A DNA stretch of 64,000 nt. It comes from an uncultured bacterium. GTDB taxonomy: Bacteria > Bacillota > Clostridia > Lachnospirales > Lachnospiraceae. The DNA is taken from positions 1-64,000 of the forward strand of contig CANCXX010000024.1 in assembly GCA_947381965.1 (NCBI GenBank), given 5' to 3'. The notes beneath the pieces were generated by a model, which saw nothing but the letters and a program-made list of their open reading frames with translations, was not told the DNA's origin and ran no database searches. The position numbers and the translations under genes are program-made. Of this stretch, positions 20,545-59,284 are shown piece after piece (position 1 is the stretch's first letter; every line of letters begins with the position of its first letter).

Positions 20545-20616
20545 TGCAAAACTGATTTCGTAATTAAAAAATTTCCCTCTTGCAAATCGGTATATTTTCC
20601 CTTATCATAATAACAG

Positions 20617-20735
20617 ATACACGACTGACGGAAGCAGGAAACGCCTGTGTAGGAGTACCTACGGGAAGTGTATAAATAAGAAATGAGCCGACCGTCTGGG
20701 CAGCCTGGTGAAGGTATGTCCAGGCGATTTTGTAT
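20617..20735 (+). promoter_or_regulatory. ZTP (pfl) riboswitch
   Basis: The leader carries the conserved pfl elements: CGACTGACGGAA near 20622, a hairpin region with CCTACGGGAAGTGTA and the 3' core GCCGACCGTCTGGGCA (20687-20702). P1 can form between ATACAC (20617-20622) and GTGTAT (20668-20673). Downstream, GCCTGG and CCAGGC (20703-20724) form a hairpin followed by ATTTTG, a likely regulated terminator. ZTP riboswitches sense the AICAR derivatives ZMP/ZTP. The two genes downstream act on AICAR and FAICAR, so the fit is very good. Confidence 0.85.
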
Positions 20736-20760
20736 TCTGGATAGAATGGAGGAAAACGAG

Positions 20761-21474
20761 ATGAAAATGTTGTCACTTGAACAGGAGCTTGCGGAAAATG
20801 CGTATCCGGGAAGGGGAATTGTCATTGGCAGGTCTAAGGATGGTGCAAAGGCTGTGACGGCTTATTTTATTATGGGAAGAAGCGTCAACAGCCGTAACCG
20901 TATTTTTGTATCAGAGGGAGAAGGAATCAGAACTCAGGCCCATGACCCGTCCAAATTGGAAGACCCCAGTCTGATAATTTACGCACCAGTCAGAGTGCTG
21001 CCTCATATGACGATTGTTACCAATGGAGATCAGACGGATACGGTTTATGACGGTATGGAAAAAGGAATGACTTTTGAGCAGTCTTTAAGGAGTCGTGAAT
21101 TTGAGCCGGACGGTCCCAATTATACTCCCAGAATTTCAGGGATTATGAATGTAAAAGATGGTATTTTTGATTATGCAATGTCCATATTAAAAAGTAATAA
21201 TGGAAACCCGGAAAGCTGTAACCGGTATACGTACTCTTATGAAAATCCGGCAGCCGGAGAGGGGCATTTTATCCATACCTATATGCACGATGGCAATCCG
21301 CTTCCAAGTTTTGAGGGAGAGCCCAAATGTGTGGAAATTTCCGGCGATATTGATGCGTTTACAGATAAGGTATGGAGCAATTTAAATGAGGAAAACAAAG
21401 TATCCTTATTTGTAAGATACATTGACATTGCCACAGGAAAATATGAAACACGCATAATAAACAAAAACAAATAA
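20761..21474 (+). CDS. purO: IMP cyclohydrolase, PurO type
   Basis: The 237-residue protein matches the archaeal-type IMP cyclohydrolase family, which closes FAICAR to IMP: NAYPGRGIVIGRS near the start, a YFIMGRSVNSRNR segment, and YTPRISGIMN. In most bacteria this step is done by the N-terminal half of PurH. The ATG at 20761 follows GGAGG at 8 nt. The frame stays open upstream into the riboswitch, but that part is RNA structure and not coding. It is paired with a stand-alone AICAR transformylase, from which a repeat array separates it. Confidence 0.9.
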   Translation: MKMLSLEQELAENAYPGRGIVIGRSKDGAKAVTAYFIMGRSVNSRNRIFVSEGEGIRTQAHDPSKLEDPSLIIYAPVRVLPHMTIVTNGDQTDTVYDGMEKGMTFEQSLRSREFEPDGPNYTPRISGIMNVKDGIFDYAMSILKSNNGNPESCNRYTYSYENPAAGEGHFIHTYMHDGNPLPSFEGEPKCVEISGDIDAFTDKVWSNLNEENKVSLFVRYIDIATGKYETRIINKNK

Positions 21475-21481
21475 TAATAGG

Positions 21482-21698
21482 TGCGGAACTGGAAACAGCA
21501 TTTGCCGTCCATATGCCCAGAGAATTTATGTACGCCAAGCGGACAGAAATTGCTCTGAGGGAAAAGGCATATGGAGGGGGAATGCGGAACTGGAAACAGC
21601 ATTTGCCTGTCCATATGCCCAGAGAATTTATGTACGCCAAGCGGACAGAAATTGCTCTGAGGGAAAAGGCATATGGAGGGGGAAATGCGGAACTGGAA
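21482..21698. repeat. tandem 101/103-bp structured repeat in the purine operon
   Basis: Two near-identical units (21482-21582 and 21583-21685) and a partial third copy (21686-21698) each begin TGCGGAACTGGAA. The units differ by two single-base insertions. Each contains an inverted repeat, CCATATGCC with GGCATATGG, enclosing CAGAG/CTCTG, so each unit can fold into a hairpin. The array lies between two co-transcribed genes. A related unit of the same period lies in the gal operon (57612-57741). Confidence 0.9.
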
Positions 21699-21711
21699 TA
21701 GGAGAAAAATA

Positions 21712-24765: not shown

Positions 24766-25497
24766 ATGCTGGAAGTAAAAAATCTGATGTTCCATCCCCT
24801 TGAAAACGGGTTGGAAAAAAGTATTATAGAAGATGTCAGCTTTATGGTGGCGGATGGGGAGATGCTGGTAATTACCGGACCAAACGGCGGGGGAAAATCC
24901 ACTCTTGCCAAGCTGCTTATGGGCATTGAAAAACCAGATGGCGGAAAAATATTTTTAGATGGCGTGGACATCACGGACTTTCGTATTGACCAGAGAGCCA
25001 ATGAGGGGATTGGGTTTGCTTTCCAGCAGCCGCCCCGGTTTAAGGGAATGACAGTAAAACGTCTTCTTTCCCTTGCGGCCGGAGAAGAAATGCCGGAGAA
25101 GAAATGCTGCGATTATTTAAGCAGCGTAGGGCTTTGTGCCAGGGAATATTTAAACCGGGAGGTGGATAATACCCTTTCCGGCGGGGAAATGAAGCGGCTG
25201 GAAATTGCAACGGTTCTTGCAAAACCCCATAAGCTGTGTATTTTTGATGAACCGGAGGCAGGAATTGATTTGTGGAGTTTTTCCATGCTGGTAAAGCAGT
25301 TTGAACAGCTTCATGCGGACAAGAAGGAAAGCCTGATTCTTATTTCCCATCAGGAACGGATTATTCAGATGGCGGATCGCATTATGGTGATCAGAGATGG
25401 AAAGATACAGGCCCTTGGAAGAAAGGAAGAGGTATATCCGGGACTTGTAAACGAGGACATGGGGTGCGCCTGTATGAACCCGGCTCACAGATTATAA
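24766..25497 (+). CDS. sufC: SufC-type Fe-S assembly ATPase
   Basis: The 243-residue ABC ATPase shows Walker A GPNGGGKST near 38-46, the Q-loop FAFQQPPRFKG typical of SufC, the signature TLSGGEMKRLEIA and Walker B LCIFDEPEAGIDLWS. SufC powers the SufB scaffold. Here it is followed only by one SufB/SufD-type gene; sufD, sufS and sufU are absent. This is the minimal two-gene arrangement called SMS in anaerobes. Confidence 0.92.
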   Translation: MLEVKNLMFHPLENGLEKSIIEDVSFMVADGEMLVITGPNGGGKSTLAKLLMGIEKPDGGKIFLDGVDITDFRIDQRANEGIGFAFQQPPRFKGMTVKRLLSLAAGEEMPEKKCCDYLSSVGLCAREYLNREVDNTLSGGEMKRLEIATVLAKPHKLCIFDEPEAGIDLWSFSMLVKQFEQLHADKKESLILISHQERIIQMADRIMVIRDGKIQALGRKEEVYPGLVNEDMGCACMNPAHRL

Positions 25498-38831: not shown

Positions 38832-40178
38832 ATGGCATCAGTTTTTGAAGAAAAAAATATTTCCAAAGCAATTATGAGAGTTGGATTACCTGCTATGCTG
38901 GGACAGCTTACAACACTGATTTATAATATTGCCGACACGTTTTTTGTTTCTTTGACAAAAGAACCTGCAACAATTGCAGCAGTAACACTGTGCGCACCGA
39001 TATTACTTATAATTATGTCCATTGCGTGTATTTTTGGAATGGGAGGCAGCAGCGTAATTGCCAGATTATTGGGGGAAGAAAAGAAAGAAGAGTCCGGCGC
39101 AATAATGAATTTTTGTGTATATGCCATGGCAATTGCAGGTATTATTACACTTGCCATGGGACTTGTATTTTTGCAGCCTCTGGCCCAAATATCCGGTGCG
39201 GACGCAGATAATATTATTTATACCTGTGATTATCTGAAATGGATTTTTATAGGAGCCCTCTTTATTATGCTGGCAAATGGATTTGTTCATTTGTTCCGCT
39301 CCGTTGGTCTGATAAAAGAGAGTACGATTGGACTGGTACTTGGAAATGTAATTAATATGGCATTGGATTATGTTTTTATTGCAATTCTGGGATGGGGGAC
39401 AGCGGGGGCCGCACTTGCAACCTCTTTAGGGTTTGTATGCGCATCCATATATTATATTGGCTGTATGATTCGTGAAGAACATAAGGGAAATCCATTACTT
39501 CCGTTGACACCTAAACATTTTTCTCCAAACCCAGCAATGATTCGTAATGTAGTAAGCATCGGAATTCCGGGTGCGCTCATTACAGTGCTTATGAGCGTTT
39601 CTAATATTGTACTTAACAACTATATCAGTATTTACGGATCAGACGCAGTCGCTTCTTATGGGATTGCATATAAACTTGATATGATTCCCATTCTGCTGTC
39701 AGTAGGATTATCCCAGGGGGTTGCTCCTTTGGTGGGCTATTATTATGGAGGAAACAAGAAAAAGAAAATGACTGATATAGTGAAGTATACGGTGTTATAT
39801 GGCATTCTTATGGGGGCGGTATTTACTGCTGCCTTTGTATTTTTTGGGAAAACCCTTGCCAGTATATTCCTGCAGGATGATGCTTTGATTGAACAAACAG
39901 GTTACTTTTTGAAGATCCTATGCCTGTCGGCTCCCATGCTTGGCGTCATCAATATGATGACAAGTTATTTTCAGGCATTAGGTAAGGCTGTAAAATCGTT
40001 GACTATCACAGCCTTAAGAAATGCAGTGTTGTTTATTCCGGGAGTTATGATTTTAAACCATTTTTGGAAACTTAATGGGGTGATTGCTGCTCAGCCTGTG
40101 GTTGAAACGATTTTAACAATAATTTGTATTTTTATGTATATAAGAGATATAAAATCCTCCGTAATATTTGATAAATGA
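38832..40178 (+). CDS. MATE family efflux transporter
   Basis: The 448-residue protein has twelve predicted membrane helices and the MATE features GLPAMLGQLTTLIYNIADTFFV near the start and SVGLSQGVAPLVGYYYGG at the start of the second half. It should export cationic drugs or metabolites using Na or H gradients. The ATG at 38832 follows AAGGAGGAG at 7 nt. Confidence 0.93.
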   Translation: MASVFEEKNISKAIMRVGLPAMLGQLTTLIYNIADTFFVSLTKEPATIAAVTLCAPILLIIMSIACIFGMGGSSVIARLLGEEKKEESGAIMNFCVYAMAIAGIITLAMGLVFLQPLAQISGADADNIIYTCDYLKWIFIGALFIMLANGFVHLFRSVGLIKESTIGLVLGNVINMALDYVFIAILGWGTAGAALATSLGFVCASIYYIGCMIREEHKGNPLLPLTPKHFSPNPAMIRNVVSIGIPGALITVLMSVSNIVLNNYISIYGSDAVASYGIAYKLDMIPILLSVGLSQGVAPLVGYYYGGNKKKKMTDIVKYTVLYGILMGAVFTAAFVFFGKTLASIFLQDDALIEQTGYFLKILCLSAPMLGVINMMTSYFQALGKAVKSLTITALRNAVLFIPGVMILNHFWKLNGVIAAQPVVETILTIICIFMYIRDIKSSVIFDK

Positions 40179-40184
40179 TGCAAA

Positions 40185-40217
40185 AATGATGCACCAATGA
40201 TGCACCAATGATGATAC
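40185..40217 (+). repeat. short tandem repeat, 11-bp unit
   Basis: AATGATGCACC occurs twice in tandem (40185-40195 and 40196-40206), followed by a partial unit AATGATGATAC. A related AAATGATGCAA overlaps the MATE stop codon just before. The array spans about 35 bp. Confidence 0.7.
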
Positions 40218-57596: not shown

Positions 57597-57611
57597 GAAG
57601 TAGGGGGAAGA

Positions 57612-57741
57612 GCCTTGAAGGGCGGAGCGGAACTGGAAATCAGCGAAAGCCCGGAAAGGCACCCAGAGGAAAGCCTGGATGAGAAGCAGACAGGATTTTC
57701 TCTGAGGGAAAAGGGCCTTGAAGGGCGGAGCGGAACTGGAA
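57612..57741. repeat. structured repeat unit in the gal operon
   Basis: A 27-bp sequence starting GCCTTGAAGGGCGG occurs at 57612-57638 and 57715-57741, exactly 103 bp apart. The unit shares GCGGAACTGGAA, CCCAGAG and CTCTGAGGGAAAAGG with the purine-operon array (21482-21698). Its basal stem GCCCGGAAAGGC/GCCTTGAAGGGC replaces CCATATGCC/GGCATATGG there. Like the purine array it ends with CTGGAATAG just before a ribosome binding site. Confidence 0.85.
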
Positions 57742-57763: not shown

Positions 57764-59284
57764 ATGATACAGGAGGACATCAGAAGGCTTGTTGTTTATG
57801 GACTGAAAACAGGACTTTTTACAGAAGCGGATAAAATTTACATTACGAACAGGCTTTTGGAATTATTTGAGCTGGATGAGCTTACAGATTTAGAGGAAGG
57901 AAAAGAGGCTGAAATTGCACAGACAGGGGTGGAGGATCTTGAGGATATTCTTGGCAGGATGATGGATTATGCTTATGAAAAGGGTATACTGAAAGAAAAT
58001 GGCGTTGTATACCGTGATTTGTTTGATACAAAGATTATGAGTGTGCTGATGCCCCGTCCCGGTGAGGTGATTAATACCTTTGAGGAATATTACAGGCAGG
58101 ATCCGGTAAAGGCTACCGAGTATTATTATAAGCTTAGCTGTGATTCTGATTATATCAGGCGTTACCGGATAAAGAAGGATATGAAGTGGGTTACGGCAAC
58201 GGAATATGGGGACTTGGATATTACCATTAATCTTTCCAAACCGGAAAAAGACCCCAAGGCCATTGCCGCTGCAAGGACTGCAAAGCAGTCCGGCTATCCC
58301 AAGTGTCTGCTTTGCATGGAAAATGAGGGCTATGCAGGGCGGGTGAATCATCCGGCAAGGCAGAACCACAGGATTATTCCGGTGACGATTCAGGGGGATA
58401 AATGGGGATTTCAATATTCTCCTTATGTGTACTATAATGAGCACTGCATTGTATTTAATGGGAAGCATATTCCCATGAAAATAGACAGAGGTGCGTTTTG
58501 CAAGTTGTTTGATTTTGTGGAACAGTTCCCTCATTATTTTGTAGGTTCCAATGCAGATCTGCCCATTGTAGGCGGATCGATTTTAAGTCATGATCATTTT
58601 CAGGGAGGAAACTATGAGTTTGCCATGGCAAAGGCGCCTGTGGAAAGAAGCTTTGAGGTAAAAGGATTTGAAGATGTGGAGGCAGGAATTGTAAAATGGC
58701 CCATGTCGGTTATCCGTTTGAAAGCAGAAGACCGGGAGCGGGTAATTGAACTGGCAGATATGATCTTAAAACATTGGAGAGAATATACGGATGAGGACGC
58801 ATTTATTTATGCAGAAACAGATGGAGAGCCGCACAATACGATTACGCCGATTGCCCGTAAAAGGGGAGAGTGCTTTGAGATTGATTTGGTACTGAGGAAT
58901 AATATTACCACACAGGAGCATCCTCTGGGGGTTTATCATCCCCATGCAAACCTTCACCATATTAAGAAAGAAAATATCGGCTTAATTGAGGTAATGGGGC
59001 TTGCAGTGCTTCCGGCACGGTTAAAAGGCGAGATGGAGAGCTTAAAGCAGGCGATACTGGAAGGAAAGAATCTCAGGGAGGACGAGGTTCTTGCAAAACA
59101 TGCGGACTGGGTGGAAGAATTTTTGCCGGGGTATGACAAAGTAGATGCTTCCAATATAGACGAAATTATAAGAAAAGAAATTGGGATTGTATTTATGCAG
59201 GTGCTTACGGATGCAGGGGTTTATAAGCGTACTTTCGAAGGAGCGCAAGCTTTTGATAAGTTTATAGAAAGTTTGAATGTGTAA
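57764..59284 (+). CDS. galT: UDP-glucose-hexose-1-phosphate uridylyltransferase, type 2
   Basis: The 506-residue enzyme exchanges UMP between UDP-glucose and galactose-1-phosphate. Length and motifs are those of the Firmicutes type-2 GalT: ARQNHRIIPVTI, NADLPIVGGSILSHDHFQGG with the HxH active site near 280, and a long C-terminal helical domain. The ATG follows TTTAGGAGG. It lies downstream of galK and the repeat element. Confidence 0.96.
   Translation: MIQEDIRRLVVYGLKTGLFTEADKIYITNRLLELFELDELTDLEEGKEAEIAQTGVEDLEDILGRMMDYAYEKGILKENGVVYRDLFDTKIMSVLMPRPGEVINTFEEYYRQDPVKATEYYYKLSCDSDYIRRYRIKKDMKWVTATEYGDLDITINLSKPEKDPKAIAAARTAKQSGYPKCLLCMENEGYAGRVNHPARQNHRIIPVTIQGDKWGFQYSPYVYYNEHCIVFNGKHIPMKIDRGAFCKLFDFVEQFPHYFVGSNADLPIVGGSILSHDHFQGGNYEFAMAKAPVERSFEVKGFEDVEAGIVKWPMSVIRLKAEDRERVIELADMILKHWREYTDEDAFIYAETDGEPHNTITPIARKRGECFEIDLVLRNNITTQEHPLGVYHPHANLHHIKKENIGLIEVMGLAVLPARLKGEMESLKQAILEGKNLREDEVLAKHADWVEEFLPGYDKVDASNIDEIIRKEIGIVFMQVLTDAGVYKRTFEGAQAFDKFIESLNV

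Follow-up and report, generated by a model that had tools for sequence, protein, structure and literature searches.

The window analyzed here is a 64,000-nt stretch of contig CANCXX010000024.1 (assembly GCA_947381965.1) from an uncultured member of the Lachnospiraceae. It contains two arrays of a repeated unit of ~103 nt, one within a purine gene pair and one between galK and galT. The ORF located 5′ of the purine array (20683–21474) has a weak match to IMP cyclohydrolase, under the curated cut-off, and the gene located 3′ is purH. The arrays and their helices (P1, P2, and P3) are laid out as follows.

21483–21583, + strand: unit 1 of the purine array, with motif GCGGAACTGGAA, then ACAG, then the hairpin; match to covariance model R1 at 21483–21595
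21584–21686, + strand: unit 2 of the purine array; R1 match at 21584–21698, 107.9 bits
21611–21619 and 21668–21676, + strand: P2 arms of purine unit 2, with P1 outside P2 (by reading)
21620–21624 and 21655–21659, + strand: start of P3 in purine unit 2, with a 3′ bulge at 21660–21667 (by reading)
21687–21698, + strand: terminal motif GCGGAACTGGAA of the purine array, followed by TAGGAG (21699–21704)
21712, + strand: start of the AICAR formyltransferase gene purH, 3′ of the purine terminal motif
About 57611–57626, + strand: 5′-truncated unit before the gal unit, comprising the end of P2′ and P1′ only (by reading)
57627–57729, + strand: full gal unit between galK and galT; R1 match at 57627–57741, 94.5 bits
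57730–57741, + strand: terminal motif GCGGAACTGGAA of the gal array, followed by TAGTAATT and TAGGAGG; galT starts at 57764

Tandem Repeats Finder reports the purine array as 2.1 copies with a period of 102 and 98% matches. As claimed in a preliminary description of this DNA, two units and a terminal motif (21483–21698) precede purH with a period of 101–103 bp, and a copy with the same period and shared blocks lies between galK and galT, where we find a full unit (57627–57729) together with a truncated unit and the terminal motif. Both arrays do end in CTGGAATAG, with TAGTAATT positioned between the motif and TAGGAGG in the gal copy. The claim that the two stems differ in sequence and still pair is also correct, but the stems quoted for it were out of register: the purine pair CCATATGCC/GGCATATGG is the middle helix, P2, and the gal quotation merges P1 with P2. 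Aligned in structural register, the purine and gal copies both fit one covariance model (107.9 and 94.5 bits, respectively).

Other features of the window include a ZTP riboswitch (20611–20708), ahead of the purine-pair gene that resembles IMP cyclohydrolase, and two short tandem repeats with periods of 14 and 11 (25078–25107 and 40173–40213), which are apparently unrelated to the element.

Structure of the repeat unit

Each unit consists of ACAG, a P1-P2-P3 hairpin with an 8–9 nt bulge on its 3′ side, and CGGAACUNNAA. In 120 units from multiple species, the ACAG and GGAACTNNAA flanks are nearly invariant, as is GGAACUNNAA, and the NN in the flank varies by locus (GG, TA, AT, TT, or AA). Because unit lengths range from 100 to 112 nt and differ by 1–2 nt inside some arrays, a protein-coding repeat was rejected by reading. 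When 30 units from 30 loci were folded as single sequences, most had the same general shape, with a predicted long hairpin in which a small internal loop separates the basal helix P1 from P2, and a bulge of ~8–9 nt, confined to the 3′ side, separates P2 from P3; deviant folds were obtained for L045 and part of L032.

A first try with MAFFT and RNAalifold on 30 units returned only 8 pairs because arm lengths vary. Covariance model R1 was built from 6 co-linear units with the structure set by hand, and model R2 from 120 units from multiple species. In the host alignment (94 matches, 92 distinct), standard pairs occupy 79.0% of cells, compared to 65.2% after shuffling. Two-sided changes occur at 32 of the 35 pairs, and there are 409 two-sided cells, compared to 133.7 in shuffled alignments, a number reached by none of 500 shuffles. 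The host covariation score is 0.272, versus 0.104 for shuffled alignments and ≤0.064 when partners were slid. In the multi-species alignment of 120 units, the covariation score is 0.521, versus 0.156 shuffled, and the number of pairs with a two-sided change was equalled by 38 of 500 shuffles. When every pair of columns was scanned, with 70 of the 94 host rows kept, the top ranks went mostly to model helix pairs; the remaining top pairs mostly join the two flanking motifs, whose variable letters are common to both within one locus. Covariation extends to the foot of P1 and the second position of the motif (104 C-G and 10 U-A among the multi-species units). The alignments used (A3, A4, A5, and A6) were fitted to the model structure, which biases them in its favor; the slid-partner control and the single-sequence folds argue against this bias as the cause of the covariation. 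The preliminary description had suggested a covariance model, with stems that fail to pair as the outcome that would count against it; what we find is strong covariation in both the host and the multi-species alignments. From this, we infer that the structure of the hairpin is under selection, more so than the sequence of its stem.

Mismatches within the helices bear on which strand folds. Across the 120 units, purine-purine mismatches (G-A/A-G) were observed 541 times, versus 568 expected from column make-up, with corresponding numbers of 8 versus 155 for C-U/U-C, 104 versus 382 for G-U, and 41 versus 335 for A-C; the host set has 372 G-A/A-G, 4 C-U/U-C, 54 G-U, and 22 A-C. Since these mismatches would be pyrimidine and A-C mismatches on the opposite strand, the pattern indicates that the gene-sense strand is the folded one, which is compatible with RNA and single-stranded DNA alike.

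Copy number, genomic position, and movement of units

The 12-mer GCGGAACTGGAA has 74 exact copies in the 4.3 Mb host genome, compared to 0 for the reversed control, and model R1 has 112 matches at E ≤ 0.01 among 150 candidates scored. The host genome is a draft, with an estimated contamination of 7.31%. Host contigs C14 and C44 carry identical arrays at a constant 67-base offset and, therefore, look like duplicate contigs; because of this, and because some arrays are split over contig ends, 112 matches overstate the number of distinct copies. Arrays also lie at contig ends and are thus a probable cause of breaks in short-read assemblies of gut genomes.

Within the genus, 9 of 37 genomes have matches at E ≤ 0.001 (8 of the 36 others, in addition to the host), with at least 92 matches in G000, 45 in G002, 42 in G041, 24 in G001, 16 in G025, 9 in G034, 5 in G006, 3 in G043, and 2 in G022. 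In wider samples, model R2 has matches in 9 of 299 family genomes, a patchy distribution, and in 1 of 291 genomes of the class, namely the host. Copy counts and carrier numbers are lower bounds because the candidates scored per genome were limited (≤99 for the genus and ≤12 each for the family and class, the latter two scans having stricter filters). At least 114 stretches of named genomes contain the 18-mer GCGGAACTGGAATAGGAG; among the 80 stretches listed, titles are mostly Lachnospiraceae, Clostridia, or gut isolates or bins, and 62 of these 80 have a model match. One of the stretches with model matches, L157, comes from a cultured species, Acetatifactor muris (strain DSM 23669). Flavobacterium and proteobacterial stretches (L188 and L205) have no model match, and their motif strings probably reflect chance. 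The search of the genome and of related Lachnospiraceae proposed in the preliminary description, for which an absence of further copies had been the opposing outcome, has thus yielded 112 host matches and further carriers in the genus and family. Carriage by phage was considered and rejected: exact motif strings occur in 1 and 7 viral contigs, and among these 8 loci only L387 matches the model.

Copies have a fixed position relative to genes. In 63 of 79 host clusters, an ORF of ≥60 codons starts ≤25 nt from the motif on the same strand (median 13), and a string resembling a Shine-Dalgarno sequence (SD) precedes the start in 61 of these 63. The other 16 clusters, by reading, are at contig ends (9), directly followed by another unit (5), or interrupted by an insertion sequence (2). 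Sampling of eight further carrier species gave 60 clusters, 51 of which precede a gene start ≤25 nt away in sense; by reading, the nine exceptions include five located before more units or a contig end and two weak antisense partial matches, the remaining ones being a chance motif match inside a gene (L105) and one unexplained case (L093). For 80 named and 8 viral loci, there is a start ≤60 nt away in 72 of 74 clusters and an SD-like string in 68 of 74. Checking copies against genes, as had been suggested, therefore places the element in sense directly ahead of gene starts. When a gene is called upstream of a host cluster, it runs in the same direction in 43 of 49 cases, versus 39 of 53 gene neighbors in the window, a difference that is not significant (p = 0.085). 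By reading of the host and named loci, the downstream genes have no shared function. Arrays often open with a truncated unit at the 5′ end (by reading). Among 31 pattern matches of shortened units, some of which are due to chance, the mean basal stem is 5.0, versus 3.15 when shuffled, and 22 of the 31 are above expectation; clear shortened units that keep the basal hairpin directly before the SD are found at L225, L174, L191, L198, L173, and L250.

Two kinds of neighboring signal were observed. A second short hairpin, GTCGCGCAGCGAC, is present in eight loci (L152, L157, L171, L220, L108, L355, L241, and L246) and, in L157 for example, directly precedes TGGAATAG; it may represent a second pre-SD hairpin family. 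At L346, a T-box-like leader (570–832; 71.4 bits, below the gathering score of 93) lies just before an element array upstream of a G041 gene, such that the T-box is separated from the SD by the array.

Sequence identity between units is high inside an array and low between loci. For the 100 of 112 host matches used (3 on contig C44 and 9 short or weak matches were omitted), median identity is 0.97 for within-array pairs (34 pairs, 31 at ≥0.92) and 0.63 for between-locus pairs. Two mosaic arrays, C33:20187–20406 and C82:1866–2082, have one unit in common (0.96), and the other unit of the C33 array matches C52 (0.95); because these arrays share units with other loci, single units have been copied between loci. 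The purH and guaB sites, read in 29 relatives each, are mostly plain spacers with an SD and no element, with clear remnants in G041 (both sites) and G025 (guaB) and a possible diverged copy in G034 (purH). Among 52 proteins encoded after the element in relatives, 4 match, at ≥70% identity, one of 67 host proteins that likewise follow it. Upstream of a class II aminoacyl-tRNA synthetase gene, G041 and G025 both carry an array of two units; compared by eye, the two leaders differ at one pair on both sides, at two pairs by a change to G-U, and at one pair that is broken. Differences within arrays comprise 3 two-sided changes, 15 one-sided changes that keep the pair, and 21 broken pairs, and for selection in place the two-sided changes are too few to prove compensation (3 versus 21 broken). 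As regards MITEs, which have terminal inverted repeats and a target-site duplication, the P1 arms are inverted repeats at unit ends, but the spacers of relatives have diverged too far for a duplication to be defined. By reading, the units of G041 and G002 share P3 sequences that are species-specific.

An insertion-sequence end of the IS110 family is found at six host contig ends (L408, L409, and L410, on C27, C50, and C53, as well as L407, L411, and L412). In three of these six, it lies exactly at the junction of terminal motif and SD, as if this junction were favored as a target by the insertion sequence. L436 (G001, contig C4) has a degenerate copy of the same end, with a unit start within a few bases, and a transposase in viral contig L421 matches DEDD_Tnp_IS110 and Transposase_20. 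The IS110-family insertion sequence was rejected as a carrier of the element, since its end is also found in genus genomes without element matches (G008, G027, and G044).

Proposed role and rival explanations

The preliminary description had proposed a structured intergenic element that is either an RNA controlling expression of the gene after it or a mobile short repeat. The structure is supported by covariation, and both alternatives find support: an RNA role fits the sense-strand folding and the SD-locked position, and movement of units is supported by the mosaic arrays and the empty orthologous sites. In the reading we favor, with a confidence that is evenly balanced, the structured elements constitute a new family, dispersed and arranged in tandem, that occupies the mRNA leaders and intercistronic spacers of certain Lachnospiraceae; they most likely act as RNA in cis and spread by copying of units. 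The upstream edge of the 30S subunit lies, by its geometry, near ~25 nt before the AUG. With the last unit sitting a few bases before the SD of a same-strand gene, P1 is predicted to end ~25 nt before the AUG, and P1 and the near-invariant GGAACUNNAA would then make up a constant structural feature where the 30S footprint begins on its upstream side. There, the P1 structure could act in cis to tune translation initiation and/or to protect the (processed) mRNA 5′ end of the downstream cistron. Such cis action would maintain pairing by selection at each locus, with units near-identical in an array and now and then copied between loci.

Covarying structure on the sense strand of leaders, as expected of a cis-regulatory RNA, is what we observe. 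Moreover, copies that are far apart in sequence (0.63) still pair (79.0% of cells), and selection therefore probably acts locus by locus, pointing to an RNA role in cis. The near-invariant flanks, the position before the SD, and the longer-than-shuffled basal stems of shortened units are also in its favor. Against cis action, no clear effect on sequestration or exposure of the SD is predicted: at 54 loci, SD accessibility is 0.66 for native units versus 0.63 for shuffled units (p = 0.10), and it is slightly lower with the element than with the element removed (0.69, p = 0.05). Other points against it are the few two-sided changes within arrays, the downstream genes without a shared function (by reading), the small overlap of these genes between species (4 of 52), the non-significant co-direction of upstream genes, and a folded strand that could equally be single-stranded DNA.

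The main rival, which we regard as possible if somewhat doubtful, is that of a selfish, mobile, non-coding element that would insert at SDs, targeted either directly or via SD microhomology in a copied unit-plus-SD donor; the hairpin would serve mobility, and effects on genes would be incidental. Sense orientation, the 3′ end beside the SD, the frequent truncated array starts (by reading), and the patchy distribution (9 of 37 genus genomes and 9 of 299 family genomes) would all be explained by such an element without any benefit to the host. The mostly different downstream genes between species, the purH and guaB sites that are empty in most relatives with remnants in G041 and G025, the transfer of units between arrays, and the species-specific P3 sequences in G041 and G002 (by reading) are also in its favor. 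However, a hairpin serving mobility alone would lose its pairing in place, and old, diverged copies keep theirs. Recent copies are few, with five between-locus pairs above 0.9, three of which probably represent one array each, divided between contig ends. A transposase partner was not found; Y1/RAYT is absent from G002 (45 copies), and a target duplication is not definable in the diverged spacers of relatives. A related and rather unlikely possibility is an RNA module that spreads itself by homing to ribosome-binding sites, where unit-plus-UAGGAG donors would be copied before other SDs via SD microhomology. Such homing would account for an orientation that is always sense, a 3′ junction that does not vary, arrays that are often truncated at the 5′ end, and a spread that is patchy, and the inserted hairpin would, as part of the same unlikely scenario, be retained as a portable 5′ leader. 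If true, it would be a mobile element addressed by the translation start signal.

Two further explanations were considered. The units could be binding sites for one trans-acting RNA-binding regulator, of the CsrA type or other, that binds the near-invariant ACAG/GGAACU around P1 and sets the translation of a regulon. We consider this improbable: near-invariant single-stranded flanks do adjoin a stem of variable sequence, the distance to the SD is fixed, and binding would rise with tandem copies, but the downstream genes lack a common function (by reading) and mostly differ from species to species. Local duplication by chance, at two loci in a single genome, would account for tandem copies that are near-identical within an array; with 112 matches in the genome, carriers in other species and genera, and covariation, it is refuted, and we give it next to no weight.

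Dispersed bacterial repeats are usually either parasites tolerated at sites of least harm or short binding sites with conserved sequence. The present family keeps structure over sequence and is positioned in sense a few bases before an SD (61 of the 63 host clusters with a start), ahead of metabolic genes. Because it precedes tens of genes, varies in copy number, and is in some places naturally shortened to P1, the effect of a hairpin bordering the ribosome site on translation and mRNA lifetime can be tested in what amounts to a natural, replicated experiment. It also bears on how a non-coding element comes to target ribosome-binding sites.

Comparison with known systems

The statement in the preliminary description that no named family is known for these repeats agrees with Rfam 15. 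The whole window, at gathering score, has matches only to two tRNAs and the ZTP riboswitch, none on the units; the array, at a permissive threshold, has three matches, all far below gathering; and 12 loci from several species, at E ≤ 0.1, have only T-box and tRNA matches off the units. Searches of open-license full texts listed no description of the element, and the family looks undescribed so far.

Several known systems share some of its properties. In Firmicutes, 5′ stabilizer hairpins lie next to strong SDs at single genes. The element resembles them in having a hairpin directly upstream of a strong SD and differs in being a repeated family before tens of genes; a search of open-license full texts for papers on such hairpins found nothing. 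REP/REPIN elements are dispersed hairpins with a short conserved foot, paired with RAYT transposases. The element is likewise a dispersed hairpin with a conserved short foot, but its stems vary by covariation and not by sequence family. A REP/RAYT system is not supported: Y1 transposase PF01797 is present in 21 of 37 genus genomes but in neither G002 (45 matches) nor G043 (3 matches), both of which carry the element. ERIC elements are imperfect palindromes of ~0.1 kb in transcribed intergenic regions, and one orientation is said to trigger transcript cleavage. The element is similar in size, palindromic character, and location; by description, it differs from ERIC in being locked in position to the SD and arranged in tandem arrays. 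ERIC elements are mentioned in a study of pneumococcal BOX elements (PMC3049150). According to this study, BOX elements, like the family described here, are small, interspersed, and modular, with tandem internal modules and stem-loops, and are proposed to be mobile and to affect co-transcribed genes (PMC3049150). BOX is reported there to be enriched downstream of genes (PMC3049150), whereas the element lies in sense directly ahead of gene starts. BOX elements follow a boxA-boxB(n)-boxC plan with terminal inverted repeats; no boxA- or boxC-like ends were noticed in the element, and the resemblance is limited to modular layout.

The closest published analogue that we found is the family of TAACTGA direct repeats in marine Beggiatoaceae, described as 7-nt units before start codons with a proposed translational role (MacGregor 2015, PMC4679880). 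The two families have much in common: many intergenic sets, mostly in forward orientation just upstream of start codons, distributed patchily over lineages and ahead of genes without pattern (PMC4679880). They differ in what is repeated. TAACTGA units are unstructured heptamers in direct repeat that mostly overlap the expected ribosome site, with SDs being rare (PMC4679880), whereas the element described here is a covarying hairpin of ~103 nt positioned before a canonical SD.
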